NCBI GenBank assembly: GCA_013407085.1
Contig: JACCGJ010013588.1
Span: 34,495 to 98,494, forward strand
Reading direction: 5' to 3'
From: Atriophallophorus winterbourni
Taxonomy: Eukaryota > Platyhelminthes > Trematoda > Plagiorchiida > Microphallidae
DNA: 64,000 bases
In this document: one piece after another, positions 1,121 through 43,500 of the stretch
How positions within the stretch are numbered: position 1 is the first letter of the stretch
How the letters are laid out: the number at the start of each line of letters is the position of its first letter
The notes under the pieces: model-generated
Told to the model about the DNA's origin: nothing
Databases searched by the model: none
Seen by the model: only the letters and a program-made list of their open reading frames with translations
Translations under genes and position numbers: made by a program

Positions 1121-3997
1121 TCAAATGTATGGCTCACGAATGTTATTCTTTTGCATATGTAAGTCCAATTTAGCTTTAAACACCGCCAGGCAAGGAGAGT
1201 CCACCACATGTTGGGGTAGGGAATTCCAAAGAAATATAGCACGTACGGCGAAAAAATGGCGCCGACAATCAATACGGGAACTTGGAACGTAGAGGGATAA
1301 GGTATGTCCGCGTGTCACTTTCCTATCACACACATCGAGCAAGTGTTTTAGTGGATGTCCTTCAGTAGACACAATTCTATATGTGAGGATAATATCGCGT
1401 CGTATCCTCCTTTGGGTAAAGTCGCATAGACCCAGACGTTGCAATCTTTCGGTGTACGGCACATTGCGAAGACCAATCACTAACTTTGTTGCTCTATGAT
1501 AGATTTTATCGAAGAGAACAATATCTTTTCGCAGCCAAGGAGCCCAGACATCTACCGCATACTCCATCGTAGGGCGAAGGTAGATATTCATTATCCTTGG
1601 TAAGGTTACCAGAGAGAATCTTCCAAATATTCTTCGAAAGATACCCAACAATCTGTTTACCCGTCGATATATGTTCTGGCAGTGCGCTGTGCTCTTCAGG
1701 TTCCCGCTAATCCACACTCCAAGATCTTTCTCCAATGAGCTCCATGCTAGGTTTTCCGTTCCTAATCGATATGTCCAAGGAACATTCTTGCCAAGATGGA
1801 GCATCTTACATTTCTGTATGTTAAATGACATGTCATTCATGACCGCCCAATTCGACACGCTGTCCAAATCCATTTGCAGTTTCTCACAATCCTCTGCAGA
1901 ACTTATTGGCGTCCAAATTTTCATGTCATCCGCGAACAGGACTATTTTGGACGATATGAGGGGGGGTAAATCATTTATGTACAGCAGAAAGAGGAGCGGG
2001 CCTAGCACAGATCCCTGTGGGACTCCACTGGTGGTTTTGAACGTTTGGGATAGCGTTCCGTTAACTTTAACTTGGGCGTCGCGATCTGAAAGATAGTCGC
2101 ACAACCATGAGAAGAGTGGATCACATATTCCTAAACGCATCAGTTTTTGAAGAAGCAAATGATGATTGACTGTGTCAAAAGCTTTCGAAATGTCTAGGTA
2201 ACAGACGTGGATGCAAGAACTTATATCCAACTCCTTTGTCCAGTCGTCTAGCGTTATGAGAAGATTCGTTAGACACGAGCGATGAGATCGAAATCCATGC
2301 TGCGCTGGCGAAAACAAATTCTGCGATTCAAAGTGTGCAACCATTCTTTTCGAGACTATACGTTCCATGAGCTTAGCAATTACAGGTAAAAGTGTGACGG
2401 GACGATAATTTCCAGCGTCAGATCGGCAACCGCCTTTGAAGATAGGTGTTATTACGCCGGACTTCCAATCTTTCGGTACAACTCCCTTAAGCAACGAATA
2501 GTTAAACAGGCTGGAGAGCGGTTCACAAAGCTGACGGTGACAGAACCTGAGCACATCCGGTGTGATGCCATCCGCTCCTGGGGATTTTCTTACATTTAGT
2601 TTGAGTGAATGACTTGCAACAATCATTGGATTTATCGAAATATCGCACAATGTTTCGATTCCTGGTTCGATTGAATACTCAAAACGTTCCCCTAAAACCT
2701 TTGGCACGAACACTTTAGAGTAGTAAACTGCTAGAGCATTTGCGGTTTCCAACGCTGTTTCAGTAAGTTTTTCACCATTCTGGATGGGAAAAATACCTGG
2801 TTTGACTTTCGCTTTCGCGTTCATGATTTTGTATAGTAATTTTGGGTTGCGTTCCATTTTTGACAGCAGCATCAATTGGTGCGCTTCCTTATCCTCTCGA
2901 ATAAGTGCAGTCACTTTGTTGCGTAACATACGGAACTGTTGCCAAGAAGTAGAAGTATTGTTGGCTTTGTGCTGCACCCACGCTGCTCGCTTCATTGCTA
3001 TCCACTTTTTTGTTCTGCTGCGGACAACAAAACGAAGTTCATGGACGCACCTTTTCTGAACGATCTGTGAGTTCTCGTCTATCTTCAGTTTCAGAAAACC
3101 TACAAGTTCGTTCCATTGCGCGTCAGGGCTTATGTTGTCCATCTGAAAATTCGGAATCTGCACCAGCGTTTTACTCAGGGCCAATTTATCTACCCGTCGA
3201 ACCACCTCATTCGGAACAAGCGATTGCTGAGTACTGCAAACATAGTCAAACACAAGCACTGAATGGTCGCTAAGACCCAGCGGAGCCTGGAATTCGATCG
3301 CTTCGATAGATTGTTCTTCCGATGTTAACACCAAATCCAAGACAGAGGGGCGGTCAGAACCTCTCCTCCGGGTGCATTCGTGAACATGGTTGTATAACGG
3401 GACTGAATCTAGTACCTCTCTGAATCGGTATTCTAGCGTTTGTGGAGAGTGATCGTCCCTGAGATAAAGGGTGGACAGATTAAAGTCACCCATAATAAGT
3501 GTCGTTGCTTGCTGTGTGCGAGTCAAGCGCTGAAGCACTTGGATCAACCTTTCGTTGTACGATTCCGTAGATGAAGGGGAACGGTAGACCACACCAATAA
3601 TGCAAACTTCACCAGACATCAGCGTTAAAGAGCACCAAATTGTATCCTCGAGCGTTAATTCTGTCTTGTCTATTGGATGGCACTGGAGTCGATTATGGTA
3701 ATAAAGAGCAACACCACCACCACTTCTCTCTCGATCGTTCCTTATCAAATTCATATTTGGAATTGATATCTCCGTTTCAATCAATTGGGAAGAATACCAT
3801 GTTTCTGTAATGGCGATAATGTCAGGTGAGTAGCGCGAACATATCTCGGTTAGCTCAGCTAATTTGTTTGGAAGGCTTTGTGCATTTGTATATAAACATC
3901 TTATAAAGTTTGTGGTGTTTAAATCATTGAAAGTTATCAAAGGGCCGACTCGGTTAGAGTCGGAATGCTCAAGTTTTTTGGAGCCATCACATGACAT
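1121..3997 (-). CDS. CR1 ORF2: endonuclease-reverse transcriptase, 958 aa
   Basis: This single uninterrupted ORF encodes the CR1 replication protein, which nicks target DNA and copies the element RNA at the nick. The N-terminal apurinic-like endonuclease spans about residues 31-250, with TETW (64-67), GDFN (170-173) and SDHS (243-246). The reverse transcriptase spans about 510-740, with YRPVTLLP (531-538), DISKAFD (602-608), GVPQGSVLGP (658-667) and FADD (688-691). The C-terminal tail carries the CR1-typical WAPWLRKDI and RATKLV motifs. The start codon is preceded directly by an in-frame TGA, so ORF2 cannot extend upstream. All catalytic motifs are present, so the enzyme could be functional. 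The start choice is fairly sure. Confidence 0.92.
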   Translation of the reverse strand: MSCDGSKKLEHSDSNRVGPLITFNDLNTTNFIRCLYTNAQSLPNKLAELTEICSRYSPDIIAITETWYSSQLIETEISIPNMNLIRNDRERSGGGVALYYHNRLQCHPIDKTELTLEDTIWCSLTLMSGEVCIIGVVYRSPSSTESYNERLIQVLQRLTRTQQATTLIMGDFNLSTLYLRDDHSPQTLEYRFREVLDSVPLYNHVHECTRRRGSDRPSVLDLVLTSEEQSIEAIEFQAPLGLSDHSVLVFDYVCSTQQSLVPNEVVRRVDKLALSKTLVQIPNFQMDNISPDAQWNELVGFLKLKIDENSQIVQKRCVHELRFVVRSRTKKWIAMKRAAWVQHKANNTSTSWQQFRMLRNKVTALIREDKEAHQLMLLSKMERNPKLLYKIMNAKAKVKPGIFPIQNGEKLTETALETANALAVYYSKVFVPKVLGERFEYSIEPGIETLCDISINPMIVASHSLKLNVRKSPGADGITPDVLRFCHRQLCEPLSSLFNYSLLKGVVPKDWKSGVITPIFKGGCRSDAGNYRPVTLLPVIAKLMERIVSKRMVAHFESQNLFSPAQHGFRSHRSCLTNLLITLDDWTKELDISSCIHVCYLDISKAFDTVNHHLLLQKLMRLGICDPLFSWLCDYLSDRDAQVKVNGTLSQTFKTTSGVPQGSVLGPLLFLLYINDLPPLISSKIVLFADDMKIWTPISSAEDCEKLQMDLDSVSNWAVMNDMSFNIQKCKMLHLGKNVPWTYRLGTENLAWSSLEKDLGVWISGNLKSTAHCQNIYRRVNRLLGIFRRIFGRFSLVTLPRIMNIYLRPTMEYAVDVWAPWLRKDIVLFDKIYHRATKLVIGLRNVPYTERLQRLGLCDFTQRRIRRDIILTYRIVSTEGHPLKHLLDVCDRKVTRGHTLSLYVPSSRIDCRRHFFAVRAIFLWNSLPQHVVDSPCLAVFKAKLDLHMQKNNIREPYI

Positions 3998-15039: not shown

Positions 15040-15260
15040 CACCTATTTATACCAACATCCTGCAGCTTGCTCAGCGGTATAGATTAGTCCACGCGATCAA
15101 ACGCCTCTGATATGTCCACGTAATTCGCATGCACGCAACCACCATCATCCACAGCCTGCGTCCAGTCGTCCATTGTCTCCAGTATGTTAATCAAACATGA
15201 ACAAGACTTCCGAAATCCATGTTGATCTCTGGACAACAAGTTTGGGTTTCGAGATGACTC
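15040..15260 (-). pseudogene. CR1 LINE fragment (RT palm)
   Basis: The reverse complement reads HGFRKSCSCLINILETMDDW and VDISEAFDRVD, the GFRxxRSC...YLDISKAFD block of CR1 reverse transcriptases, with stops. It continues the same decayed copy as 14430-14760 after a gap. Confidence 0.6.
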
Positions 15261-15323
15261 ACTTTATCTCGCGATAATTTATGAATGAGATAATGTCTTG
15301 CTCACACCCCTTCGCACTTACAC

Positions 15324-15366
15324 ACCACAACCGGTTTCTGATTATTTACCGTCATCAGGTGAAGAC
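15324..15366 (-). ncRNA. Hammerhead ribozyme motif 1 (type I, family A)
   Basis: On the minus strand the order is stem I strand (TTCAC), core CTGATGA, a short stem-loop, GAAA, a minimal stem III (CCG) and cleavage triplet GTT, then GTGGTG, which re-pairs with CAC of stem I. Every invariant core base of a hammerhead is present. Stem II is weak (CGG...TCA). Hammerheads with tiny palindromic stem III (ACCGGT) are known from schistosome Sm-alpha and other animal repeats, where they may work as dimers. Confidence 0.65.
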
Positions 15367-15479
15367 AGTGAGATAAGTTTCTGTTAGCCTAAAAACAGTA
15401 ATATATATGTATAGTAATGTGTACGCGAATGCCAATACAACATGGTGTTCGTACAATCAAGACCAATGTCTCCGTTTAC

Positions 15480-16695
15480 CAACGGCAAACATCCAGCATC
15501 CCGAAATGGTCTGTTAGGGATGAGAACGTGAGCAACACATTACTTTGGTCATCCATAGGCGCCTTGAGTTCTTCACCAAGAATCACTTTGTGATTCTGTG
15601 TCTGAACATCGTGGTTCGTTGTGCGTACCCTATGTAGAAGTGGCATGCAAGTAATACTATGTTTACCACTTTTTCAAGGCTCACTGAACCTAGTCTTACT
15701 GTCTCACCTAAAGACGGTAAACAGCCAGATACCTGCAGTGGTGTGTAAAGGATGGAGATGTGAGCATCACATTACTTTGGTCATCCATAAGCGCCTTGAG
15801 TGCTTGACCAATAAACAATTTGTGATTCTGTCTGAACATCGTGGTTCGTTGTACAAACCCTATTTAGCAGAGGTATACTAGAATAACATTGTTTACCACT
15901 TTCCCACTGTTACAAGTCTAACTGAAAGTGATCGTACTGTCTTCATCTGCCGACGTCAAACAGTTAGAAACCGGTAGTGATGTTAGGGTTTAAGGATGTT
16001 AGCAACACATTACTTTTTTCATCCATAAGTGCTTGAGTGCTTGACCAAGAATCACTTTGTGATTCTGTGTTTGAACATCGTGGTTCGTTGTACTAACCCT
16101 ATGTAGCAATGGCATGCAAGTATTACTATGCTTTTCACTTTACCACTTTTGCAAGGCTCACTGAACCTGGTCTTACTGTTTCCACCTGGAGACGGTAAAC
16201 AGCGAGATACCTGCAGTGGTGCGTCAAGGATGGGGATGTGAGAAACATTACTTTGGTCATCCATAAGCGCCTTGATTGCTTGACCAAGAAACAATTTGTG
16301 ATTCTGACTGAACATCGGGGTTCGTTGTACGGACCCTATGTAGCAGTGGCATGCAAGTATTACTATGTTTACCACTGTTTCAAGGCTCACTGAACCTGGT
16401 CTTACTGTCTCCACCTGAAGACGGTAAACAGCCAGATACCTGTACTGGTGTGTAAAGGATGGATGTGAGAAACACATTACTTTGGTCATCCATAAGCGCC
16501 TTGAGTGCTTGACCAAGAAACAATTTGTGATTCTCTCTGAACATCGTGGTTCGTTGTGCGAACCCTATATAACAGAGGTATACTAGAATAACATTGTTTA
16601 CCACTTTCCCACTGTTACAAGGCTCACTGAACCTGATCTTACTGTCTCCACCTGACGAGGGCCAACAGCCAGAAACCGGTAGTGGAGTGTAAGGG
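15480..16695 (+). repeat. Tandem array of ~236-bp hammerhead-bearing units (family A)
   Basis: About five head-to-tail units. The junctions fall near 15719, 15957, 16197, 16427 and 16664, giving periods of 238, 240, 230 and 237 bp. Each unit has an AGAATCAC-TTT-GTGATTCT-like hairpin (decayed in some), a GGTTCG...CGAACC hairpin and a hammerhead-like stretch at its end. Most hammerhead copies here have core changes (CTAAAGA, CTGCCGA, GATA for GAAA). Only the last is intact. Related single units lie at 17.85, 18.8, 19.86, 23.05 and 62.1-62.6 kb. Confidence 0.8.
16647..16686 (+). ncRNA. Hammerhead ribozyme motif 2 (type I, intact core)
   Basis: TCCAC (16647-16651), core CTGACGA (16652-16658), stem II GGC/GCC with loop CAACA, GAAA (16672-16675), CCG, triplet GTA (16679-16681), then GTGGA (16682-16686). 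TCCAC and GTGGA form a perfect 5-bp stem I. CTGACGA is the same core variant as in the schistosome Sm-alpha ribozyme, since position 7 is free. Best-preserved copy in the window. Confidence 0.75.
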
Positions 16696-16739
16696 ATGTG
16701 AATGTATGTTAGTGGTTTGTATTCCGAATTCGCGTTTCG

Positions 16740-16880
16740 AATTAACATTTAATTCACTCATGGCAACCGTGGTTGAAATTGTTTGATTTTGAATGTATAT
16801 TGCATGTTCTCTGAGGTTCATTACAGAATAATAAAACGTGGCCAAAGCTCAAGCAGTTTCTGATGCATTTGTTGTTGTTT
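16740..16880 (-). repeat. Duplicate of CR1 segment 14630-14755
   Basis: Both copies share the run ttgtttgattttgaatg and an agcagtttctgatgca-type end, with scattered changes. Two copies of one LINE segment thus bracket the hammerhead array. Confidence 0.55.
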
Positions 16881-17121
16881 AATCTGACGTCTTCATACAC
16901 TCATCTCCAGGTTTCGCTATAATTCAATAGTTAACCATACGATGAAGTATTTTGGGATGGGGCTCCATCATGTGCGATATCTGTTCTAGGTAGCACAACT
17001 TGTCTTGTATGAAAATTTGTTTATTTTGTTCCACTGAACAAAGGTTAGAAACATATACCCAAACTGGCTACACGATGACCTCAGTATATAATGAAAAAAT
17101 CATGTAATATTCATCATTCTG

Positions 17122-17295
17122 AACTAGTTATATTCGAGAGTTTCTAGAATCGTTGTATTCAACATCACGATCAATCAATGCGCACGTTCAATTGGATGGG
17201 ATCTACGGAACTAGTTATATTCGAGAGTTTCTAGAATCGTTGTATTCAACTTCACGATCAATCAATGCGCACGTTCAATTGGATGGGATCTACGG
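17122..17295. repeat. Two exact-length 87-bp tandem copies
   Basis: The segment beginning aactagttatattcgagag and ending atctacgg occurs twice in a row (17122-17208, 17209-17295) with one visible difference (aacatcacg versus aacttcacg). Such high identity marks a recent duplication. Confidence 0.9.
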
Positions 17296-17849
17296 ACCAA
17301 TGAGAATATGCCAACAAGTAGGACATGCCAGAATACATGCCTATCACAGTAGATGAGGCCGCAACGCAACAAATGAATTCGAAAGATGCCCATCTTCTAG
17401 TTGCTTTGACAGAAGATTCGCTGATGTTGTCATCTAGTTTGGCGACAAAAATTCAAGAATGAACAAAACTATCTCGTACAGCACATTTGACGTACAATCC
17501 CGTATATCAGGCGGAGACATTAAAATTAGCAAACTTATATGCAATCAAACCTGGACAGGATATCCAGGCTCGCTACAGTCATAATCGTATAACTCCTATC
17601 AGATAGGTCAAAATGATGTCAATGTTGGAACAACTGATATTCAAGTTTACTGTTAACCTAACGAAAACGCCTTACGACTTGCATTCTTAGAGAGCGTATC
17701 TAAATGTTGTATTGGTGTGAGTTCAAAATCTAATGAAAATATGTAATGATTTCGATGGTATTTCAATTTTCTTTCAAAAGGATTATGAATTATTCGTATT
17801 ACAAAGTGTAATGTTAGTATAAATTGGATTAATAATTTTCCAATACTTT
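17296..17849. other. Non-coding, no gene seen
   Basis: No recognisable gene, RNA or repeat in this stretch. Confidence 0.45.
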
Positions 17850-18000
17850 GTAACTCACGGCAAAAAATCATTCTCTCTACACCTAGAGATAGCAAACAGC
17901 CTGAAAGCGAGTGTGGTGTGAAAGTGCAAGGGATGTGAGTAATCCTGTAACTTGTCATTTTCATCTATTTGATCGGTTGACTAAGGTCAACCGATCGGTC
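17850..18000 (+). repeat. Degenerate family A unit with 11-bp hairpin
   Basis: A hammerhead-like stretch at about 17878-17925 has lost core bases. Downstream GATCGGTTGAC (17971-17981) and GTCAACCGATC (17986-17996) form a perfect 11-bp stem around TAAG, in the place where other units have a weaker match. Confidence 0.55.
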
Positions 18001-18029: not shown

Positions 18030-18774
18030 AACGGTGGCATTTAAGATTCAAGAATTTATGGTCACAAAAAGCAGATAGCTTCACAATTACCATATCATAG
18101 TAAATATGCGTTCAATAAGAGGTATAAAAAATCAATTATACGATGTCACTGGAGTCAAGTAATATGCTCACCCTGAGTCAATACACAGGCATCGTCAAAT
18201 AGTTATGTAACAAATAATTGTCCAAGGTTCGAGTGAATGTTTGGATACAGGGAGAGGTGATAATTGCTTCGGGAAGGGCATTCCACAGGAAACAGACACG
18301 TACTGAATAGAAATATCGGCGACAATTAGTGCGGGAATGGGGAATTTGTAGTGCCGCTGAGTGGCTACGTGTAATTCCTGATTCACGGTATTTGAACAAA
18401 TGTTTGAGTGGATGATCTGGAGTATTCAATATCTTGTAAGTAATTATAACGTCACTTCGAAGTCTACGTTGAAGGGGAGTGGAGAGCTTTAGCTTTTTCA
18501 ACCTTTCCTCGTATGTAAGGTCTCGAAAACCAAGCACGAGTTTAGTTTCACGATGATAAATCCTGTCAAGCAAGAATATATCTTTTTTCATCCACGGAGT
18601 CCATGCTTGCGATGCGTGTTCCATTGTGGGAATTAAGTAGGTCTTCATGATTCTTGGCAACGTTACAGGCGTAAAGGTTCTGAAGATCCGTCGAAGCATA
18701 CCTAGAAGCTTTGAAGCACGCTTGTAAATGACCTCACAATGCACGCTGTTCATTAGTACAACTTTGTTTACCAC
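18030..18774 (-). pseudogene. 5'-truncated CR1 LINE with open 3' ORF (198 codons)
   Basis: The minus-strand ORF 18178-18774 encodes only the C-terminal part of CR1 ORF2 after the reverse transcriptase palm: FTPVTLPRIMKTYLIPTMEH, WTPWMKKDI, YHRETKLVLGF and a CR1 tail. It is similar throughout to the intact copy at 1.1 kb. The 3' end reads aagattcaagaatttatgg (plus strand), a decayed octamer repeat. The 5' truncation point adjoins a hammerhead repeat unit at about 18770. Confidence 0.8.
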
Positions 18775-18900
18775 TTACTCACGGTTTCAAGGCTAATTGA
18801 ACCTAGTCTAACTGTTTACACCTGATGACGGCAAACAGACAGAAATCGGTAGTGGAGTGCAATTGCGTCAGATGTGAGCACTGTAAAACCTGTTTATTTT
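18770..18900 (+). repeat. Single family A hammerhead unit (partial)
   Basis: The tract tttcaaggctaattgaacc through ggtagtggagtg matches the 3' part of the tandem units at 15.5-16.7 kb. Confidence 0.7.
18819..18855 (+). ncRNA. Hammerhead ribozyme motif 3
   Basis: CAC, core CTGATGA (18822-18828), a loop with weak stem II, GAAA (18842-18845), TCG, triplet GTA (18849-18851), then GTG pairing with CAC. Core invariant bases are present. Stem II has one mismatch and stem III a G-T pair, so activity is uncertain. Confidence 0.6.
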
Positions 18901-19568: not shown

Positions 19569-22500
19569 GTGAGTTCTTTTAACCGAAATATGTAAATTGA
19601 CTACATTGGTGACTGACCATTGTTCCAAAAAATAATGCGATGTTACGTACATTCTCCGATTGTAGAAGACTGAGTACGAATCCGTTTGTAGTGAGATATT
19701 TCAGGGATTCCTAGCAGCACGATGGATTAATCTTTTTAACAGTTTGGTCCATAAATACTAAGTACTCGTTTATATGATCTCCGTTTATTGGTGATAGAGA
19801 AAAGAGATATATTTATGTACAACGTATTTGCGATATAAGGCTCATTGAATCAAACAATCATGTCTCCATCTGGGAACGTCAAACAGTCAGAAAACCGTTG
19901 CTAAACAATGTTGAATGCAATCTGTGAGATCAGTTTTTGGTAATTTTTCACTTCTGACGCAGAGGCTTCGTCAAACCAAGGGTGATATTCAGGAAAAGGA
20001 ACATGATTAAGTAGAAGTCAACCCTCCATCACTCATTTGACCTTACAACTAAACAGTCTATATTACGCCTAAGGTGTGTCGATTTGCGTACTATTGTATA
20101 CTCTCATCAATCCAATACAAGTGAACATGGTCAAGGTCGGTTGACACAGCGGGCCACATGCGGAAAAGTACATAACTAACGCGGCTAAGGTCATACTATT
20201 TTTTGAAGAAAAACACAAATCTAATTAGAATGTATGAGGTTGAGATGCCGATTGGTAGAGCAGCTGCCAACTCATTTCGTTTAAACTCCCGTGTCTGAGG
20301 AACCCGCAATTTGACTGACAAAGATGATGTTATACAGCGCGTGCTTACTCAATGCTTAAATTTGCAGGAATGTGACCTAAACTCTGCACGAAAACAAGGA
20401 CAGGCGATAAACGCTTTCCATATGAGTGCAATGTGCCGCATTTGAAAGATATTTATGATGGTCAAAGTAAACATGCCCATGGTTTTTTGAAGCTAGTCAA
20501 CAAAGCACGGTCACTGTATTACAACTCCTACCTGGGTCATGTGTACAGAATGGATAATAGTCGTGTTCGAAAATATATACTCACACAAAAGTTTTAAAAT
20601 TACGAATTTTACCTTTGAGCACAGCCTAGTTGAAATACGATTACGGTTGCAAAACATATATGAAAGCTATTGACATTGACCTTACGGGTTGCCAGAAACT
20701 TGCTCTTAAACGCTAACTCAGCCGAAACTGTATGATGTATCCTCCCAATCTGCGGACTCAGCAGATACTTCTCTCGGCTGCTGAACGTAGATCACGCCAC
20801 GACAGTAAACTCGTTTGAAACGCTGTGCGGTGTCTACCCATAGTTGTTTTCGACAGAAGGAGGTTAGCGCAAAAAACAAAACAGCGTCATTCTAAAATTC
20901 CAGCATATCACATTGAAATATAGCGCATAACATAACACTGCACAGCAACCACTGTGCTCGGTCTACAAATTTGCTCCTTAATGTGGTGCAGAAGTGAGAT
21001 TGAAAGCTCCTATCTAAAATACGTTTCCCAGAGCAGGTTGCAATTCGAAAATTTTCGATTTCGGTACACGAGACTACCGCTGAGAGGATGAATAATGTTG
21101 CTTAAACATGCGACACGCCTTTGATTAAAAACAAGGTTAAAACTTGGTAGCAAGCATCCTAATCAAGAGTTACAACTCTGTGTAGGGTAAAGGTTGGTTC
21201 ACTATGTAAATTTAAATATGAATTCCAGAACAAAATTGCGATATCGTTTCAGGAACCCCAGCGAATGGAAAATTTGTCTTTGCGCCTTCTCTGGTGTACA
21301 CCTACGAAGGATCTCCGGTGTTTCTCCTATGTCAGATGGATGAAAATGTGGAAAAGATAAGGTAAGTGCAGATATATAAATAGAAAGACAATGCTTCGAT
21401 GTTCATGAGTGTGTGTTCCCTGAGTTTGCACCCGCGATTTACGGGCATTTTTTAACCAAAGTAGATTACATCATCAAATTAACTTAGTGCGAAACAAAAA
21501 GATCTTGAAGCTAACCATAATTATACGACGTTAACCTGCATTTCTGGGCTGCTTGTCATACAATCGTTGCGATTCCTGCGTCGCATGTTGAACAAGCCTC
21601 AACATAGATAGCAGTAGCCAACCGGAAACAAGCGCCTACGGAAGAGGTACAACTACACAGATCATTTATTAAGATCATTCTGAACGTCAACAGCAAGCAT
21701 ATCACATATATTAAGCGGACTTGCGTCAGGACGGATTACAACCGCGTTGGTACAAATTGCAGTAATTAACAACCACAAAAATGAAGAGAAACACATGTAG
21801 CAAATGGATATCTTAGGAGTCATTAGACAATACGAATTGCTTCGGCCAAGTCTAAAGCTAAAGACCTCAACGTGATGCAGATTTACCCTACCAGTATGCG
21901 GAACACATCTCAATACTCTACGCACAAAAACTGAGTCCATTCTGCATTGATGATGCGCAGAAAGCTATCAAAAAACGCTTAGCTGTCAAAGCCGAAAGAT
22001 TCTATATTGAAGGAGAACAAAACGAATGGAGTCTACAAAATACCATCAAGAAATGACTAAATGCATTGCGTCGGGTAGACTGAAAGAATACTGTGTACGA
22101 GATTACACGAGCATCAATTGGAAGTGAGAAAAAACTACCACGTGTCTTTGGTCTCAATGCACGGATATTGCATAGAGTATGAATTCGACTGCAATTAATC
22201 TTCAATCCTTGCAACCGGTAGAAGAAAATTCACACTGGAATTTCTCGAAGCATGATTTTAAATGACACAGTCACTCACTAATTGCATGCATTTGGACACG
22301 GCATACGGAAAAATGAAATTTCGTTTTTTCTACATGCGGCATGGAATCGCAACGGTCGTTTGACAAGCAGCTCAGGTATTCAGGATAACGTGGTATAAAA
22401 GTTATAAACAACCAGGCCCTTTATGTTTCGCAGAAGATGTCATCTAGTTTTGTGACGCTACGTCCGCAAACACATTTTACTTAACTAGTACACATTCATT

Positions 22501-25500
22501 TTAATGGAATGACCTTATTCACATCCGGTTAGGCAAGGATGTAAAGATTTGCTTAAAGAATTCGAAAGCTGTAATGGAGTATGGGAGAGCAAGAGCTAAA
22601 TTTTACACAGCGCACACCATTAACTCTAATGTTCTACAACGGCAAAACAGCAACTCATGTTCGATCTGACAGAATACACGCATTTATCTGGACGTAGTAC
22701 AAGTCACGTTTTACATAAACTGGATAATTACATACTTTCAATGAAAGATAACTTACTACGGTATTGTGGTGTTTGCATGATCAGGATCCGTTTGCCTTTA
22801 ATCAATGGACAAAAGAACTTTGAATTCACTATCACAGTCTCGATACGACTCGTACAGCTTACAGATACAACCCATGAACATATATATTCTTTTGAACGTG
22901 AACAAATTCATTGACTTGAACAAAACGTTAATAATCAATCGCTTTTCATTGTCAACGTCACGATATTTTGTCAATTTTAATTCAAATCATAGTACTGTTT
23001 TGCTCACGTCCTCCGCACTTACTACACATTAGTTTCGTCCTAAATAAGAGCCTCGAATGCTTGACCAAGAATCAATTTTTGATTCTTTGTTTGAATACCG
23101 TAGTCCGAGGTATCAGTGCATTCAATTATAACTTTGATTAGATTCAAATCCTTGCAGCATTCTAAAATCTGCACCAAATGTGTACTTTCAAAATCTTACA
23201 CCGGATGTACTTTAACCATTTGCAGATTGTATTAAAATTATTCCTCTAATGCCCCATAAAGCTTTGGTCACGAACTAATTTCATATACCTCGAAAGGTTC
23301 AAATATCATGCATCTTATGTTAACCACATGTTGAAGGAATGAATTTGGAACTTCTAATTTTGCATATATGATAAATCCCAATAAAGGAAATATCCACATT
23401 CTAAAGCAACGATTAGAGATGAGGAGCTAATTCAAAGGCTCGTTCATTTAAACACCTTGATTGTTCCGCATTTTTCGTCGCTCCAACATTTTCTTCGTTT
23501 GAGAAATCGTAATATCTGTCAGTTGTATGTTCAAACTCGAAGGTTTCGGATTTCCTGAATCTAGCATACTATCAGTTATTCCTGAGAAAATGTGAGACAA
23601 AGATTCATAAAGAATACTTCACGCTTTCCATCATCCATACCTCGCCTTTTAAATGTGTTTCGAATTAACTTATATATTGTGGCACTGATAATGCAAAACC
23701 GCAAATGTTGAACTCTTTCACAACTGATTTTAGTTCATTAGCTGGTCGACCGTTTTAATAGCCTCCAGATTGACCACAACAAAATACGCGTTATTGTGAA
23801 TGGGTTTACCCAAGATCGTGTTGTCGCGAGCCACGAAATCTGCAAGTCAATCGTGCCACGTATCCATGCAATTTCATCACGACGAGAAGGCGTTACGTAG
23901 AACAACATGCATCAGAATATTCAACACACATTGTGTACTGCTGCCAGTCGCCAAATAACTGTGCCATTGTTTGAGACATTGAGCTCACCGAAGAGCAGGT
24001 GGGGAAGAGAGACCGCAAAAGATTGCATCAGGTGATTTCAGGTCAACGGCTGGCCATCATCTTGCCACTTATCACATTTCAATTTTTCGGGTCCGACAAT
24101 AACCACGTTATCCCCTTTGAACATTGCATCCGATTCGTTTCTAAGGTCAACCAGTCCCATACAAATCACGTGCATCCTCACACTTGACAACACAAGTGAA
24201 AGCCTATCGATCAATCGCAAAACACACCACAAGACTGTCCTGAAACGTGTCTATCCCTGTTGTCACTTAGCTGTCATTTTTCAATCGATTTCGTGCCATT
24301 AGTTAAGCTGTAAATCCTTACCTTGTCAGGATCTACTGACCGACCTTGACATCGATTGCGCTTGATACGATGTAATGTCGCATGCTTCCAGATATGTTTT
24401 CGCGAGAATCGTTCTCATGTATTCCTTCTGAAACCCGGAATACTACGAGTTCACAATTGTCGTGGCCGGTATTTTCGGTGTTTCCTGCTCTTACGTTGGC
24501 CAACGGGTGGTGTTCGGCTTATCATCCGAAAGTTTGTGATTTGCATTCATCATCAAAATACTTCCCAACTACACAATATGACCGATTAATCAATCGACGA
24601 ATCAACATTTTCATCATGAATAATTCCATCAGCATATTTCTACACAATACATAAAACAAATCATTTGCCTTGTTCCACGTTTTTTAACGCATTGATTTTG
24701 GGTTTGTTCCAACCAGTTACTCTTGGCAACGCGATAATTTACCAGCACCATGGGTCAAGGGTTATCGATCAAATCGTCTGCCAATCAACGAGCGAGACGC
24801 TTTGGGCGCCGAATCTCTAAGATTGTGGTGGTTCTTGGATAAATCTTTCTTGAATACTGGATCGATTGACGGGAACTATGTGTGCGTTTTCAATGCTAAG
24901 AACGGGTATGCAGTTTCGGATACAATCAGGGTTGTTACGTTAGGTAAATTCCCTCTTCTACTCTTTTAGATTCAATATAATTCTAAAACAACATTATTAT
25001 ATAAAATCTACTCATGTTTAGTAGATCTACCATGAGACAGTCGAAACGGTGAGGCAGACGTTTTGAGGAGCGAGAGCTGCTTTTCTGCGGTGAAAGAAGA
25101 TTGCGTGACACCAGACATGCGTGGTTCGAACCGATCTAGTGATTACAATATTTTTGAACGAAATTATTCCTCATGATTTGATATAGGTTTATTATAATCT
25201 ACCTGAATCAATCTTAAATCACTTAATTCTATTTGACTTTAACATTAGTTATCCGAAATTTTGTGTCTGACGATAAAAATACCAATGGCTCTATATAAAA
25301 TATTCGAAATGTATCCTCTATTTGACATATACGGTTTACTCTTCCAGCCAATGGCTTCCAGTTTCTAGACTCTTGAATCCTCAACATTGAAACTTCCTCG
25401 GTTTTATTCTACAAAATTGAAAACCAGATCTTGCAGTTTAAAGCCATCGTTCCATTTTATTTGACAACGTGTCGTGTGTAATTGTCCGTTGCAATTGGGA

Positions 25501-34500: not shown

Positions 34501-37500
34501 GTCGGTATTCAGTACGTTCGAAATCACACAATTCGTTCATAATGTATAATGCATAACATTCACCGAATGTTTCAAGTTTGAGTAAAACTCAGCAAGGAAA
34601 CATTTCAGGACGAGTATAGGAAATTCAAGTTTGTAGAACATAAGAAGTAACTAATTACGAGCTCAAATCTGTAGAGTATTGTGTCTATAACAACATTTGT
34701 ACTTAGGTTGTTTCTCGTCGCTTGGAATCATCGATAACGTAAATTTCGTTCGGAATCTGCGTTATTTCTGGTTTTGCAGGAAGATAATGGCTGATACGTT
34801 CACCAAGTCTGCTAGCTTTTTTTGATGTTCGTTTGTTTTACTACATGTAATTACTGGAAAAACTAGACGTTGGAACCAGTTATCTCCATGAAAAATCTAG
34901 GTGGGTAAACTTCATTGTTTTACAAGGCTCACAACAAAAATTTAAATCTGGGCGAAAGGTTAAAATTGGTCATAGAATATGGTGGAGGATAAAATATCCG
35001 CAATCGTGTGCATACGTGTCACTCATATTCCGCGACCGGTTTCGTGCTGTTTGCACTCATCAGTTAGGGACAGTATGATCAGGATACGCTTGTGATTGAA
35101 ACATTAGAAGAATGGTAAACAAGTTGCGCTTGTATGCCACTGTTGGATAAGGTTGGTTCTACCAGGCTGTTCAATCACATGAGCCCACACTCATGTAGAC
35201 AGTGTTTGCACACAGGTTCCCTAAGAAAAATGCTCATCTCCATGCATTTTCACCACACACACACCGCACTACCGGTTTCGTGCCGTTTGCACTCATCAGG
35301 TAGGGACAGTAGAATCAAGAAACGCAAGAGCTTGAAAGATTGGAGAATCGTTAAAAGTGGTTTGAAGTTGTTATCTACATTTGGGTAATGCTTAGTATGA
35401 ATCACGAAATATGTTCCTATACTTGAAAGTATCGAGTTGTTTTTTTAAAATAGTCAAATGTGTCATATAATATCACGTGAGTTAGTAAATTGTTCCTCAA
35501 TTGTAGTGCGAATAGGCAAGATTCGTATTTGCGGCAGTTTAACCTACCCTGTCTATGATAGATTTTAAGCAGGTGACCGCGAAATTGTGTTATGTAAGAC
35601 GTGCAACAAATGTCTCTAAGCATGAGTTGTCTGAGTAAGTACTGGCAAGTGACAAGTAGTGAACCTCCTTGTAGCTGATACCGGATTTAGCATTTTGATA
35701 CGAATTTTGGCATTGATGATTAGAAAGCGCGCATTTTTGGCAAATCAGTCTACTTTGTTGTAAATATCCGATTATTAACTACTGAATATTTTGACACAAC
35801 AAGTCGAGCAAAGCGCTTCAGTGTCTCTGACAAAAACGCATATTGACGTGAAGTTTGGTCATGGTCCCATGCCGTTTGACGTTACTGGAATGCTACAAAA
35901 TGAACAATGCAGAGGTAGGACGAAATGGGAGGTTATAGTAATAGAAATAGTAAGAATTAGATTTCGATTGAATTTAGGAGAGAGGGATTTTCTAACTTTA
36001 CAGGACACATCCTTTAAAATTTACCATGAGATTCCCATCAGTAATATTTTAAAACATGACACTCATAAACAAGTCTTCGATTATATGGGTTAATGCTTTA
36101 TAATAAAAAAAAACAAAAATGAATAAGAATTTCCATATTTGCCAAGAAATGCCCTTAATCAGATCGAAGGATTTTTGTTTCGGTATTTAACGCCATGCTA
36201 AACAATGCATGCGTCAGTAAATTAATAAATGGATCTGATCATCATCGAATGTTAAACAAAAATCATGCAATGTTACGTGTTATGGCTGAACACGTTTAGG
36301 TCGATATTGATGTAGACGAAGACAATGATAGACATCCGATCTGTTTGAAGATTTTAATTGCAACTGCCTCGCATTCACCAAAGTTGGTCGAACAAAACTT
36401 CCCTGACAGGCTGTGTGGAACCGTGGAAGCTACTGAGAGCGTTGCCGCAGGTTTCACTCGGTAACCCATGTAAATCAGCCGGAACAGAATAAAACTATTT
36501 ACCTTTTAGAACAATCGTATCAAAAATAAATTCCGTTTTTTTCCAGCAAATAATTGTGCACTAACAAAAAGAATAAGTATATTTTGTATCAATCTATGTA
36601 ACTGTAGAATAACACTAGTACTACAAACCTGTTCAATAACGTGTCCAGACAGACGTTTAATGTTTAATCACAACAGCGTATAATGGCATACCCTGTTCCC
36701 GGCACTTTTCTTGAAGTGGTCTCAGGGAGAAGATATTATCAACGTTGATCTTCCCCTGTGGAAGCCACATTCAGTTTTGTAGTTCATTCTATCAGCTGAA
36801 AATTATATCCGGATCTGTAAGACTTTAGCAAACAGTTAGCCTACAACATTCTGAAGGTAAATTCCTCTGTAATTGTTGCAGTCATCTCTATCACCTTTAT
36901 ACTTAAATAGCGTGAAGATCTTTGTGTCTCGCATCTCGTGTGGCACAGACTCCTCCTGCCAGCACTGAGAAGCTAAATTTTCATGGGATCAATTTCATGT
37001 CAATGCTAGACGGAATGTGTTTCTAAGAGACCTAATGCTGTGGTTTCGTTTGGAAGAAAGTGTTATTGACAGAAAAACTGAACGGTGTGCACATTTTGAA
37101 AAAGCTTTGATCATTTACTTTGGTTTTACCTACACCGAACTTTCCGAGAAGACACGTAATCTGCAATAACACTGGCATTGAAATCATCAAATACAACTAC
37201 ACAGTTTCTTTCGGCACGATTTTGTTGATCACGGATGATCGATTATCTTACGCCTCTGATAATCGAGAATTCATCTTGAAATCTCGAAAGCTTGAACCGA
37301 AGGTTCTAGATTTCCAGTTTCACAACTGACCTTTGTTGTTTCGTATTTTTTTCGCTGGTGTGAAAAATAAGTCTGCTTGTCGTTTGATTCCTAATTCGCA
37401 TGCACCGAATGAGGATAAAAGACCGTAGCAAGACGGCACCTTATATACTGGGGGCTGCCCATTTTACGGCGGGCGTCAGACGTACAATGAGATCTGAAAA

Positions 37501-40500
37501 TCTGTCCCATCGTCGGAAGAAGCACCAAGCTCTAGCTTTACGTCAGTCGATCTAAAGATATTAACAGGTAACTGCTGCTACCGGTGTTATCATCCATATC
37601 ATCGAAGTTGGGTTCCAAGGTTGTCAAAGCCGGGGCGGTTTTGGGGATAAGCTCCCAATTCTAAAAATGCTCCAATGGCACGCGTCTCATATAGCCTCTG
37701 GCAACCAAGTCCAGCTCCTGGCCTGCACGCGTGGTCCTGTGCGACCCGGCGGAACTGCTTCTACTGACAGGAGAAAGGGCGAAGGCGGCTGACTGGCGCC
37801 TCAAAACCAGCATGCTTCGGGCAGGTGGAGCTCGTAAGTCCATGAAGGCGGTCCACCATGGGGAAGGAAAACCCTTATCTCAAACCTCCACTGCCTTGTG
37901 GCTACATCCAATCATGGAAAAGGCTTCAGGAGTCAACCTCGAGGAAAAATCCGGAGCCGGAGTCCCGTTAGGCAGTCCGAAGTTTTTTTTTACAACTTCG
38001 CCCTGCCAACTTCTGCGACGGCATCGTTGTCCAAACGTATCAGCCTAGCTGTTCCTTTGGTTCCGATGGTGCCGTGGAGAGGGAGCACTTGCTGCATGGG
38101 CAACAGCTATTTCTCCACTTTGAACTGCCCTGGCGTACATCACAACGCACCAATGGAGAGGACACTCCATTCCGCTTCTGCGGATAATAACACGGGAAGC
38201 AGCAGATACCGGTTAAAAGCTATGGCTCGATTGGCGTAGAGCTCAGCGCCTGGGGCTGCTTTCGACGGTGGGAGAGACTTTCAGGTCTCATTGGACGGCT
38301 ACCGCCCGCCTCAAGCTGGGCAGCCCCCAGCCAATATGGTGCCGTCTCGCCACGGTCTGCTATCCTCATTGGGTGCATGGGGATTAGGAATCAACCGACA
38401 AGCAGACTGTTATTTCTGCACCAGCGAAACCAACTACGAAAAAACAAATGTCATTTCTGAAACTGGGAACCTGGAACGTCCGGTCCATGCTTCCTGGATT
38501 TCACGACGACGTCTCGAATATCAGAGGCGTAAAAAAATCTGCTGTTATTAATAACGAGTTAAAGAGACTAAAGGTCGACGTGGCAGCCCTACAAGAGACG
38601 CGATTACCAGACACTGGTAAGCTGACAGAAAGAGATTACACGTTTTTTTGGAAAGGAAGGGGTTCTGATGAGCCTCGATTGCATGGAGTTGGGTTTGCCG
38701 TTCGAAACGACCTTCTAAAAGCAACTGAACCGAGCAGCAGCGGGAGCGAACGGATTTGGACTCTAAATCTGAGGTGCATTACTGGTACCATTACGTTGGT
38801 AAACGTTTATGCGCCGACGCTCTCTGCGACGACTGCTGAAAAAGACGCTTTTTATTACAACCTCGCAACAGTCCTGAAAAACGTGCCACAAAGAAACTGT
38901 GTAGTGGTATTGGGTGATTTCAATGCTAGAGTTGGTGCGGATTACGAATCTTGGCAAAACTGTCTCGGGAAATTCGGTGTAGGTAAAACTAATGAAAATG
39001 GACTACGCCTTTTAGAATTATGCACACAGTTCAGTCTCTGTGTTAGTAACACTTTCTTTCAAACAAAACCACAGCATAAGGTCTCTTGGAAACATCCTCG
39101 CTCTAAGCACTGGCACCAGCTTGATCTTATTCTTGTTAGGCGCACTAATATAGGAAGCGTACTTCTCACCAGATCATATCAAAGCGCAGACTGTGACACT
39201 GATCATTCACTGGTTTGTGCAAAACTGAAGCTTTCCGACACGAGATTTCACCGCACCAAATTGTCTGGTAAGCCTAGGATTGACGTCACCCGCATGTGCG
39301 AACCTAATCTAGTTGCGCGATTTGCAAAAGCCTTCACAGCCGAGTTCAGCAAGACAACCCCACTTGAATCGGCTTCAGAAAACTGGGAATCGATTAAAAA
39401 CAACATATGCCGAGTCGCACTTTCCACTTTCGGTCCGAAGAAAGCTCGAACGAGCGACTGGTTCGAAGCAAAAGCTTCTGAGATGACTGCTGTGTTGGAT
39501 GAGAAACGGTCAGCATTCTTGAGGTTCAAAGGTATGCCAACAGATGAAAACTTACGACTTTTAAGAGCATCCAGAAATAAGGTCCAACAGACTGCAAGGC
39601 GATGTGCAAATGACTACTGGACAGAAATTAGCCTTAGTATCCAAAAAGCTGCGGATACTGGAAATTTTCACGGCATGTATGATGGGATCAAGAGAGCCAT
39701 TGGTCCAAACAAGCATAAAATGGCTCCCATTAAGTCTGTATCTGGTGACCCGATTGTGGACAAAACTCAGCAGATGGAAAGATGGGTAGAGCACTTCTCC
39801 TCCCTCTACTCTAGGAACAGTACGGTTTTTACCACATGTATTTGAAAATTTCGAGCGGTTGCCGACTATTGAATATCTAGATACTCCCCCTACTCTTGAT
39901 GAGCTCAATAGAGCGATCGACCGCTTAGCGAATGGGAAGGCCCCTGGTGACGACGGAATTCCACCTGAGCTCATCAAATGCGATAGAGCAGCATTATTAC
40001 AACCGCTTCACCATTTGCTTCTTCAGTGCTGGCAGGAGGAGTGTGTCCCACAAGAGATGCGAGACACAAAGATCATCCCGCTATTCAAGAATAAAGGAGA
40101 TAGAGGCGACTGCAACAATTACAGAGGAATCTCCCTTCTGAATGTTGTAGGCAAATTGTTTGCTAAAGTTTTACAGGTCCGGCTGCAAGTTTTAGCTGAT
40201 AGAATTTACTCCGAATCTCAATGTGGCTTTCGCAAGGGAAGATCGACCGTTGACATGATCTTCTCCCTAAGACAACTTCAAGAAAAGTGTCGGGAACAGT
40301 GTATGCCATTATACGCTGTTTTTATTGATTTAACGAAGGCATTCGACTACGTCAGCAGGGAGGGTCTTTTCAAAATGCTTAATTTGATAGGCTGCCCACC
40401 AAGACTGCTAAAGCTCGTTATTTCGTTCCACTCAGACATGAAGGGCTCAGTCCATTTTAACGGTTTCAGCTCAGAAGTCTTTGAAATTCGCCGAGGCGTC

Positions 40501-43500
40501 AAACAAGGGTGTGTTCTGGCTCCCACGCTGTTCGGCATTTTCTTTGCTCTGCTTCTGAATTACGCTTTCAGGACGAGAACAGAAGGTATTTACTTACGCA
40601 CGCGAAATGATGGCAAGCTTTTCAACCTAAACCGGTTGAGAGCACAAACCAAGGCACGAAATGTGCTAATCCGTGACCTGCTGTTTGCCGACGATGCAGC
40701 CTTCATTGCTCACTCCCAGGAGCACCTTCAGTCTTTAATGGACTGTTTTTCGTCGGCATGCAAAGACTTTTGGTCTAACAATCAGCATGAGCAAGACCAA
40801 AGTCCTTAGCCAAGGGACTGTATCGCCTCCCATCATAACTGTTGGAAACTGTCAGCTTGAATCAGTACATCAGTTCACATACCTCGGTTCAACCATTGCG
40901 GATAACCTCTCGCTAGACACGGAGATTGATAAGCGAATTGGCAGAGCAGCTGTCATTCTGTCCCGTTTGAACTCTCGTGTTTGGGGTAACCGAAAGCTGA
41001 CTGTAAAGACGAAAATGATGGTGTACAGCGCGTGCGTACTGAACGCTTTACTGTACGGCAGTGAAACCTGGACCACCCACGCAAGACACGAACGGAAGCT
41101 GAATGCTTTCCATCTGCGAAGCATCCGTCATATCTTGAACATATCGTGGATGGACAGAGTGACTAATGCTGAAGTGCTTTTAAAAGCTGGTCTACTGAGC
41201 ATGTTCACTCTATTGCGACAGCGCCGCCTGCGCTGGCTTGGTCACGTCTATAGAATGGAAAATGGTCGTATTTCGAAAGATCTACTCTATGGTGAGTTGC
41301 AACTAGGAAGTCGACCATTGGGCAGACCGCACTTGCGGTACAAAGACGTTTGTAAAAGAGATATGAAAGCTCTTGGCATTGATCCGGCGAGTTTGGAAGA
41401 ACTTGCTCTCGACCGCTCACATTGGAGGCACTATGTAAAGCGTCGTCTGCATGCTGGGGAGGAGCAGATACAGCTCTTGGCAGCTGAACGCAGATCACGC
41501 CGACGACGTGCAACTAACGCAATACAACCGAGTTCTGACTATCGTTGCCAGCGCTGCGGGAGAGATTGTTCCTCCCGAATCGGACTGTTTAGTCACTCAA
41601 AAAGCTGCAAAACTTGAACATTCACGCGTTTGTGATGTACATCCATGGTCGACATCGACCGAAGGAGGCCAACAACAACATCGAAGTTGAGCGTCCTCTC
41701 ATTTGGTCCGTTGAGATTTACGCCAGGGCATCTTAAATTGGAGAACTAGCTATTGCACGTTGACCAAATGCTCCCTCTTCACGGTATCACCTGACCCAAA
41801 GTAAGGGCTAGCCTGAAATGTTTGTACAACGAGGCCGTCCCAGGACTTGGCTGCACGAAGTTAAATGACACCTCGGGCTGCCGAACGAGAACCCCGCTTG
41901 GGGTTTTTCCTCCAGGTTGACTCCTGAAGCCATTTTCATTATTAGATATAGCCAAAAGGCAGATGAGGTTATAGGTAAGGGTTTTTCTTCCAATAGGTGG
42001 ACCGCCTCAACGGACTTACATGCTCTACCTGCACGAAGCAAGCTGGTTTCGAAGCGAAAGTCAAACGCCTACACCAAGTCTCCTGTCAGTAATAGCAGTT
42101 ATGTCGGGTCACAAAACAATCACGCGTGCAGGCCAGGAGATGGACTTGGTTTAGACCGTTTTGGTGGTGACAACCTTTTAATCACAGGTTATATGTATGA
42201 AAGTATAATAAATTTGAGTATCAATTTCGATTTATGTTGTACATGATGATTAGTATAACGCAATTACGCATATGTTGTTGGGGCAACTTATGTTAGTGGA
42301 ACTTGTAAGTTCAAGAAACGTTTCACAAAAGAGGGTGTTTCTCTCAGTATCACCATGAAGCTTAGTTGTGGACGTGTATTAACACATGAAAACTCTGCAA
42401 GAAATCTTACGAAATCGTCCACAATCTGCTTCACGCTGGAATGTTACATTTTATTATGAGGTTGTGGTTCCAGATAAAACACTCAGACTAATTAAAAATT
42501 TCCACTATCGTTACTGTGTAAGCGCCCTCTTTAGATGGCAAGTTTTTGACCACGTGCTTGATTATGGGACTCGTTGACTTTGAGAATCGAGAAAGGCCCG
42601 TCACAATGTTTCATTTTGCTCCAATATTTCAACCGTTTTCAAACAATTCAGGCAGGTGATGCGTAACGCGTTCAAGTGTTTCATGTAGCCTAGTATGCGC
42701 ATAACACCTATTTTCCGATCGATTAAGGCTGTAGAATTTTACAGCTCCAGATTAAAGGCCTCTGCAGTTGTGTGAAATAAATAAGCAGCATTATTGACCA
42801 TTGCATACAAGAATTTTGTTGGTTGAACGTGAAATCTAACATATATTTACCAACTGATTGGCTGTTGAATTGGCTGTGAATTTTATACCAATGTTAGATG
42901 AGGACGTAAATTTGAGTAGTGACAAGGTGATACTGCATTGACTGTTTTAAAACAATGAGATTATATTTTGAGAACAGCCTGTAGGACAGTTAATTATGAG
43001 AGTCGTTTGTGGACACAAGATTGAAAACAGCTCAAGATTGCGAAATCAGATAAATAGATAAATAGAAAAACGATGTTGTAGCTGCCACAGGGTCTGCCTA
43101 GCGTTAATGATCAGCTAGATTATGAAAGCGACCGATTGGTGCATCGTTTGTAGGTATAATCCCCGCTTAATAGACTGTAGGTGCGATCGGTGTCCTTCAA
43201 ATAGGAATGAATTACTATGCTTCAACATTTTGCTGTCAGAAGCTGGTTTTACCTGCTTCTATTGCACGTGCGACAGCTCTTGCTGATCGTTTACCGAAAC
43301 GGTGGCCCACATAAAGGTCAATTTTCTACGTTCAACTTTTCAACAATACCAACCAATAACAACATTTTCCCTACGTATCGCATGCAATTATAAACAATAT
43401 TCCAACCGAAATTTGACAGCTGATATAATGATGTAATTCAACATTGATACGCCTTTACCCCTATACCTCAACCTCAGCGTTAAATAAACATACATCACTA

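Follow-up and report, generated by a model that had tools for sequence, protein, structure and literature searches.

The 64-kb stretch of the Atriophallophorus winterbourni genome analyzed here (contig JACCGJ010013588.1, positions 34,495 to 98,494; the window) holds tandem and dispersed copies of a noncoding repeat of 230-240 nt, built around a type I hammerhead ribozyme motif and divided into two related subfamilies, A and B. We favor, with a probability of about 0.6, the interpretation that these repeats are retrozymes lacking long terminal repeats (non-LTR retrozymes), inserted by target-primed reverse transcription with an internal start on the RNA, with a protein of the Penelope-like element (PLE) type as the most likely helper. 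The repeats form the tandem 150-450 bp units with a type I hammerhead by which retrozymes are recognized, and their opposed copies, mostly set head-to-head and flanked by a target-site duplication in about a third of such compounds, match the insertion signature of PLEs, an inverted 5′ arm within one such duplication. The evidence comes from the window and from a search of the 537-Mb assembly (15,840 contigs) that contains it.

An earlier note on this DNA had drawn attention to tandem ~236-bp repeats at 15.3-16.7 kb with an opposed copy on their left, and this array is real: Tandem Repeats Finder (TRF) places it at 15507-16705 with a period of 229 and 5.1 copies, as one of five TRF rows in the window. 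It forms a B compound of two arms. The inverted arm, 15279-15469 (-), is a 5′-truncated B unit with a hammerhead-like motif (model R1 match at 15313-15378 (-)), and its outer end, at about 15279, lies near a recurrent 3′ end described below as the first site. The direct arm, 15467-16705 (+), consists of a partial unit and five B units (15504-15737, 15738-15976, 15977-16215, 16216-16444 and 16445-16681, all (+)), spaced 229-239 bp apart, with hammerhead motifs at 15689-15753, 15927-15992, 16166-16231, 16395-16460 and 16632-16697 (all (+)). The last motif is the best B copy in the window: its stem I pairs CTCCAC with GTGGAG on the inner side and CTTAC with GTAAG on the distal side, its stem II (GGC/GCC) has G.A as the basal pair, and ACCGGT makes up stem III, with A at position H17. 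Units 2 and 5 retain GAAA and are mutually alike; in units 1, 3 and 4 it is replaced by GATA (A14U), an inactivating change in the hammerhead GAAA box. Since GATA is common to three of the five units, the array would have grown in part without an intact ribozyme in those units. From the sequence, mixed units appear to have been duplicated as the array grew. The 2-kb intervals covering it have GC contents of 0.402 and 0.393, below the 50% that bounds described retrozymes, and the sole listed reading frame of at least 130 aa over it is 16052-16564 (-), of 170 aa.

The two copies that the earlier note had singled out proved to be poor representatives. At 16647-16686 (+), said to keep every core base, CTGACGA..GAAACCGGTA is present together with a 6-bp inner stem I, but G.A, which the note overlooked, takes the place of the stem II closing pair at positions 10.1/11.1. 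The opposed copy at 15324-15366 (-) has CTGATGA..GAAACCGGTT, but there C.A closes stem II. Both are decayed members of subfamily B without an Rfam score: the Rfam hammerhead model RF00163, the check by which the earlier note would have its reading stand or fall, gives no match up to E=10 in 15200-16900, and the whole window contains no Rfam match at the gathering threshold. We do not accept this failure as a final verdict on the family, because relatives score up to 37.2 bits although their stem III is equally loopless; loopless stem III alone is therefore not the reason why the reported copies receive no score.

The earlier note had passed over a better tandem pair at 35018-35392 (-) and further copies at 44, 60 and 62 kb. 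The 35-kb locus is a tandem pair of subfamily A, 236 bp apart, with a canonical core, stem II GTGC/GCAC and stem III ACCGGT; its copies (35063 and 35299) were located by a plain scan for CTGANGA...GAAA and score 20.0 bits (35254-35319) and 18.4 bits (35018-35083) with RF00163, the threshold being 34 bits. A profile built from nine copies matches 17 places in the window (E ≤ 0.001), those nine included. A strict type I descriptor requiring G10.1-C11.1 finds one window site (35299-) against 5 in 1000 dinucleotide shuffles, and a relaxed one that leaves 10.1/11.1 free finds three (16652+, 15358- and 35299-, which are mutually related and hence not independent) against 22 in 1000. At the level of the family, then, the tandem repeats with type I hammerheads and a palindromic, loopless stem III (ACCGGU) are supported. 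The 35-kb locus also occurs in identical form on another contig (L022, G000:C4632:23704-23949), which may mean that haplotypes were left unmerged in the assembly.

Subfamily A, with stem II GUGC/GCAC, and subfamily B, that of the reported array, share unit length, the internal loop of stem I, loop II and the loopless ACCGGU stem III. Their consensus 3′ halves align closely, keeping the stem I internal loop and the loop II sequence AAACAG; the 5′ halves differ, with hairpins that by eye lie in similar places, for example GGTTGGTCGTACCAACC in A and GGTTCGTTGTACGAACC in B. The B consensus is without the G10.1-C11.1 pair of stem II. When 112 motifs drawn from 41 searched sources are aligned, 81.1% of the cells for hammerhead pairs are paired, compared with 22-48% with slid partners; at the second pair of stem II, 58 motifs have U-A and 41 have G-C. 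The three hammerhead helices thus appear to be supported by covariation, read from few independent events in an alignment fitted to the structure, and on the 13 window copies alone the support is weak. When motifs are sorted by their stem II letters with the same script that counts the pairs, which makes the A/B split partly one of construction, 29 of 63 A motifs have an intact core, 54 of 63 have G-C at 10.1/11.1, and 15 of 63 combine core, full stem II and at least five of the six inner stem I pairs; the corresponding figures for B are 33 of 49 with an intact core, 34 of 49 with C.A at 10.1/11.1 and 1 of 49 passing all tests (stem III not asked in either subfamily). Over aligned stretches of at least 200 bp, median identity to the consensus is 93.4% for B (n=21) and 89.6% for A (n=36), in a sample chosen for likeness to the window copies and with long B arrays excluded. 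Because B, lacking G10.1-C11.1, is the less diverged subfamily in this sample, full ribozyme activity may be dispensable for copying.

Two copies of the 16652 motif folded as a dimer share a 6-bp ACCGGU helix. Circular folds of the A and B consensuses form stems I and II, in a paired ring whose neck is stem I, but they pair the core CUG with stem III, as might be expected if a single unit were a weak ribozyme by itself. The earlier note had read the weak helix III as a sign of dimeric action, and this has precedent in type I hammerheads, as far as the accessible sections of PMC7229834 and PMC6155905 describe them.

Genome-wide, RF00163 gives at least 32 matches, at least 27 of them over threshold (74 scored of 96,317 first-look candidates), and none in any of 14 control genomes. 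Among the 20 matches with loci, 18 belong to a third hammerhead family, S (L001-L018), and two are relatives of A (L019 and L020) that pass the threshold at 37.2 bits; the A copies that RF00163 scores have 18.4-37.2 bits, two of them over the cut-off. DNA searches with the A and B units returned 3789 and 3477 first-look candidates, which are not copy counts; 40 candidates were scored and 40 separate main places listed for each unit. Family S has a unit of about 410-427 bp; most copies have the palindrome ACTCGAGT as stem III, and in most a tRNA-like part containing a B-box-like GGTTCGAGTCC lies directly upstream. A further copy lies in L077 (41.1 bits). We take it to resemble the alpha short interspersed nuclear elements (SINEs) of schistosomes. 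The parallel with schistosome Sm-alpha that the earlier note drew for the array fits the separate S family better than it does A or B.

The copies bear scars of their insertion. Opposed A/B neighbors in 42 loci, the window's own two included, are head-to-head in 22 cases and tail-to-tail in 3 (two-sided p 1.6e-4 against equal odds), and a second method over A, B, S and the window, with the window's own loci L021 and L051 excluded, counts 34 and 4. Family S contributes opposed copies in the same orientation (head-to-head 6, tail-to-tail 0, in 17 loci). Within the window there are four head-to-head groups: the B compound at 15.3-16.7 kb; an A group at 44080-44862 (44.1-44.9 kb), with arms at 44080-44433 (-) and 44499-44862 (+) separated by 65 bases, a motif at 44679-44747 (+) and a deletion-bearing (-) motif near 44200-44255; an A compound at 60373-60741 (60.4-60.7 kb), with arms at 60373-60472 (-) and from 60454 (+) and a motif at 60649-60714 (+) that has an intact stem II and core U4 changed to C; and a B compound at 62035-62654 (62.0-62.7 kb), with arms at 62035-62322 (-) and 62314-62654 (+), a motif at 62202-62267 (-) and a decayed one at 62447-62511 (+). 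Exact flanking repeats of at least 8 nt (8-14 nt) bound 9 of 28 head-to-head compounds, against 2.65% between different loci, and repeats of at least 10 nt bound 5 of 28, against 0.13%; direct elements are flanked by 8-14 nt repeats in 11 of 53 cases, against 2.4% in the control. Where such duplications are present they are longer than 4 bp, as in described retrozymes, and each repeat-flanked head-to-head compound probably entered in one event.

The 3′ ends cluster past the ribozyme cut and not at it, lying 25-52 nt beyond it in 16 of 18 cases for B and 15 of 27 for A. Using site windows of 30-50 and 141-160 nt, chosen after inspection of the data, 13 of 22 A/B head-to-head compounds have one outer end at each site, where a uniform spread would give 0.015 per compound; in family S, with two nearby sites, 5 of 7 compounds have one end at each and 2 of 7 have both at the first. 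Of 38 direct A/B elements, 19 have their end at the first site, 5 at the second and 14 at neither. Windows read from B only still capture 5 of 18 A junctions (0.13 expected). In new loci that had no part in setting the sites (8 A, 2 B and 12 B initially filtered out, with sums made by hand), the first site replicates, with 8 of 21 outer ends at the preset position and 1.9 expected, and the simple compounds are head-to-head in six cases (L090, L096, L097, L099, L080 and L103, the last cut by the locus edge) and tail-to-tail in none, beside one complex group (L092). The first site and the head-to-head orientation therefore replicate; the second site is not established.

These counts depend on how loci were filtered. 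Duplicates were removed by shared 60-mers, a filter that arrays of alike B units also trigger: among 13 B loci removed, 4 share flanks with a kept locus (L055, L061, L068 and L078) and 9 are distinct, and in later B filtering L101-L103 are distinct and L104 shares flanks with L080. Of the 26 distinct B loci, the first-set counts cover 17, or 16 when the one in the window is excluded. Five of 30 A loci were dropped (long stretches of L022, L040 and L043 recur in a kept locus, L023 shares 550 of 3187 60-mers with L021, and L024 lies wholly inside L023), as were two of ten new A loci and one of 18 S loci (L004, with 123 shared 60-mers, perhaps wrongly). The duplication and end-site analyses leave out the window's own loci, clusters touching a locus edge and clusters without an arm of 100 nt; clusters in L062, L069-L072, L075 and L103 touch the edge and yield no ends.

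We propose that A and B are non-autonomous elements transcribed as multimers, in which the loopless stem III would form best between two tandem units; the transcripts would be cut to unit length and possibly circularized. Target-primed reverse transcription would then be initiated internally, some 30-50 nt beyond the ribozyme cut, with a possible second start at 141-160 nt, might copy more than one unit and would stop variably on the 5′ side. Priming from both strands of one break would give head-to-head compounds inside a target-site duplication, and some B arrays were lengthened too, probably at the DNA level. Cleavage, circularization and the PLE as helper are parts of this scheme that we infer. 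A PLE-type protein is the most likely helper because PLEs are reported to insert in this way, and we regard PLE-type insertion as a supported lead rather than as proof. Three other accounts of the scars were set aside: foldback or self-priming as the cause of head-to-head compounds is rejected, 19 junctions having no excess of palindrome; RNA polymerase III termination does not account for the 3′ ends of B, which has no oligo-T there (A has oligo-T, and there termination could play a part); and the idea that B insertions are passengers in a larger repeat was withdrawn.

A number of results weigh against this interpretation. In the first set, 9 of 22 A/B compounds depart from the pattern of one end per site, and half of the direct elements (19 of 38) end elsewhere than at the first. 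In the new loci the second site takes only 3 of 21 outer ends (1.8 expected; another, at 161, lies 1 nt too far), and none of the new compounds combines an end strictly at the first site with one strictly at the second. The two A/B sites would be about 115 nt apart, compared with 30-40 nt for published PLE tails, and in contrast to Adineta PLEs the 19 junctions are no richer in palindromes than randomly chosen places. As for the ribozyme, none of the 20 other A loci (of 24) reaches the RF00163 cut-off, nor does any A/B motif in 17 B loci, and no Rfam hammerhead matches B in 5 B-bearing loci; the circular folds pair the core CUG with CGG of stem III and are only mildly more stable than shuffles (z -1.9 and -1.8). 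Of 12 B loci, at least six are arrays that extend to the locus edge, three of them filling about 3.2 kb, and for such long arrays satellite growth appears a better explanation than retrozyme insertion. Eight GIY-YIG loci (2.1-3.5 kb) contain no match to the A/B hammerhead model, and 4 of the 8 belong to a Gypsy-like composite. Finally, our control on long interspersed nuclear elements (LINEs), with one head-to-head and two tail-to-tail cases among 38 RTE pieces and neither among 13 CR1 pieces, is small and was made on loci chosen for hammerheads.

The main alternative, which we hold to be unlikely although it deserves serious weight, is that these retrozymes are moved by an ordinary LINE of the RTE or CR1 type and that their head-to-head compounds arise by L1-type twin priming. 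RTE and CR1 copies are present, among them a long RTE and a CR1 whose frame is open; 5′-truncated copies and 8-14 nt duplications are compatible with LINEs, and many junctions have short overlaps. L1-type twin priming also explains orientation and duplications, so only the second fixed site, if real, separates it from PLE-type insertion. Twin priming yields a varied outer end of the inverted arm, and the 13 of 22 first-set compounds with one outer end at each recurrent site speak against it, but the second fixed end did not clearly replicate. The orientation of RTE and CR1 pieces in the small control gives the LINE account no help either, and by eye no sequence is common to the A/B 3′ ends and the RTE end.

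A second alternative, that the repeats are mainly satellite DNA spread by unequal exchange or DNA-level copying, with hammerheads as remnants without a current role, seems improbable. It draws on the GATA common to three of five units of the 15.5-16.7 kb array and on the B arrays of 1.8 to >3.2 kb in L062, L069-L072 and L075. A satellite reading, which the earlier note implied by its Sm-alpha parallel, stands in so far as B forms long arrays, but it is incomplete: dispersed short copies occur at unrelated sites, their 5′ ends scattered, their 3′ ends clustered and target-site duplications beside them, as expected of retroelements. The long B arrays are cut by the locus edge and are 89-92% alike to the consensus. 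The last alternative, that the repeats are mobile but their hammerhead is not a working ribozyme in this family, can point to the absence of an Rfam match at threshold in the window, to a B consensus without G10.1-C11.1 and to the predominance of mutated copies, but is made very improbable by the A relatives at 37.2 bits, the compensatory stem II change between A and B, and the single strict motif against 5 in 1000 shuffles.

Returning to the PLE-type helper, we looked for its traces in the genome. GIY-YIG, the endonuclease domain of PLEs, gives at least 17 weak matches over the cut-off at 28-29 bits (150 scored of 1370 candidates). In L082 a YMDD frame, presumably of PLE reverse transcriptase type and not recognized by Pfam as a reverse transcriptase, is followed by GIY-YIG (27.6 bits). 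Directly behind the GIY-YIG frame of this locus, at 1335 (+), stands CTGATGA...GAAACGTC, unscored by R1 and Rfam, which could be a minimal PLE hammerhead or chance in coding sequence. The window itself holds a GIY-YIG-frame relic at 17121-17433 (+), about 0.4 kb downstream of the array, which resembles the part behind the GIY-YIG domain of L081 (by tblastn) and L088 (at the DNA level), and a second relic at 21983-22324 (+), similar to the GIY-YIG frames of L081 and L082. An 87-bp tandem duplication, 99% identical, occupies 17121-17294 within the first relic. The idea that A/B hammerheads sit in PLE pseudo-LTRs was dropped, the eight GIY-YIG loci having no model match; one 39-nt B piece lies in L084. 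In L081, L084, L085 and L086 alike the GIY-YIG frame comes first and a Gypsy-like reverse transcriptase second, with translated pieces 89-98% alike between loci, and this composite could have arisen by capture of the endonuclease or by a nested insertion that was amplified along with it. Much of the composite is repeated in inverted orientation in L081. The A/B units, at about 236 bp, have no open reading frame of their own for a PLE reverse transcriptase with GIY-YIG; the A/B element is not itself a PLE but at most a PLE user.

Further B material is scattered through the window: a decayed solo B-like relic at 17802-17933 (+), with a motif at 17863-17928; a solo B relic with a CTGATGA/GAAA core at 18754-18867 (+), joined head-to-head to a 5′-truncated CR1-like fragment at 18178-18774 (-); decayed B relics at 19815-19928 (+) and 62944-63165 (+); and a fragment of B unit body without the hammerhead at 23023-23140 (+). 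Among the LINEs of the window, an open CR1-like frame of 958 aa, which includes an endonuclease and a reverse transcriptase domain, spans 1121-3997 (-), and a long RTE-type element spans 37800-41690 (+), with an inverted copy of its first ~370 bp at its 3′ end (41689-42052 (-)). Elsewhere, near a B insertion in L067, 552-745 (+) matches U2 spliceosomal RNA at 152.9 bits. Among the matches listed in protein searches were those of cnidarians, crustaceans, molluscs and other animals, at most 59% identical, with no close relative.

A and B fit a known kind of element, the non-LTR retrozymes. As described in the available sections of PMC7229834, the metazoan non-LTR retrozymes of Acropora, Mytilus and axolotl are likewise dispersed elements of GC content below 50%, with tandem units of 150-450 bp (220-240 in Acropora), a type I hammerhead in the unit and target-site duplications of more than 4 bp where present; A and B differ from that account in their head-to-head compounds, in 3′ ends clustered past the cut and in a B consensus without G10.1-C11.1. 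In the literature searched, as far as the accessible text of these papers goes, we found no retrozyme description with head-to-head compounds and 3′ ends clustered past the cut, though other publications may hold one. New here are the head-to-head excess, the target-site duplications in about a third of compounds and the 3′ ends 30-50 nt past the cut. PLEs of Adineta (PMC3846280) and Anolis (PAc, PMC11167929) share with A/B, in the parts of these papers available, a head-to-head inverted 5′ copy, partial tandems, duplications of 8-10 bp, a type I hammerhead with minimal helix III and, on the scheme proposed here for A/B, an internal start of reverse transcription; in contrast to them, A/B units encode no protein, their junctions are without palindromes, their supposed second site is about 115 nt from the first and not 30-40, and their stem I has an internal loop. 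The Anolis PLE cuts and extends both strands, has two internal reverse-transcription starts, and inserts in vitro with a mutated hammerhead (PMC11167929, in its accessible part). The Schistosoma Sm-alpha and Sj-alpha elements also carry a type I hammerhead in a short repeated element, to which the S family adds an upstream tRNA-like part. Compared by description and not by sequence, A/B units are about 236 bp in place of the 335 of Sm-alpha (PMC8490949, from the text available), and no tRNA-like part is seen in them. With newt satellite 2 and the axolotl retrozymes, again likened by description and not by sequence, A and B share the principle alone: a helix III too short for efficient single-motif cleavage, and dimeric action in tandem transcripts (PMC6155905 and PMC7229834, in their accessible sections).

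The mover of animal retrozymes is unproven, and insertion scars offer a direct and cheap test of it, which here leans towards PLEs. In the available text of PMC7229834 PLEs are proposed as the movers of retrozymes, and there and in PMC7761336 they are termed a "strong candidate" helper for their type I hammerheads, tandem copies and co-occurrence. With A, B and S all appearing to show internally initiated, head-to-head insertion of the PLE type, we lean slightly towards the broader view that animal retrozymes are parasites of PLEs. Subfamily B raises the question of whether a retrozyme family can keep spreading with a weakened ribozyme; if the view is true, copying continues after loss of a pair thought important for cleavage. 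It would also make every retrozyme-bearing genome a test set, with start sites on a 236-nt RNA that are easily studied in vitro, and it would answer who moves retrozymes and explain why hammerheads are common to these short elements and to PLEs.

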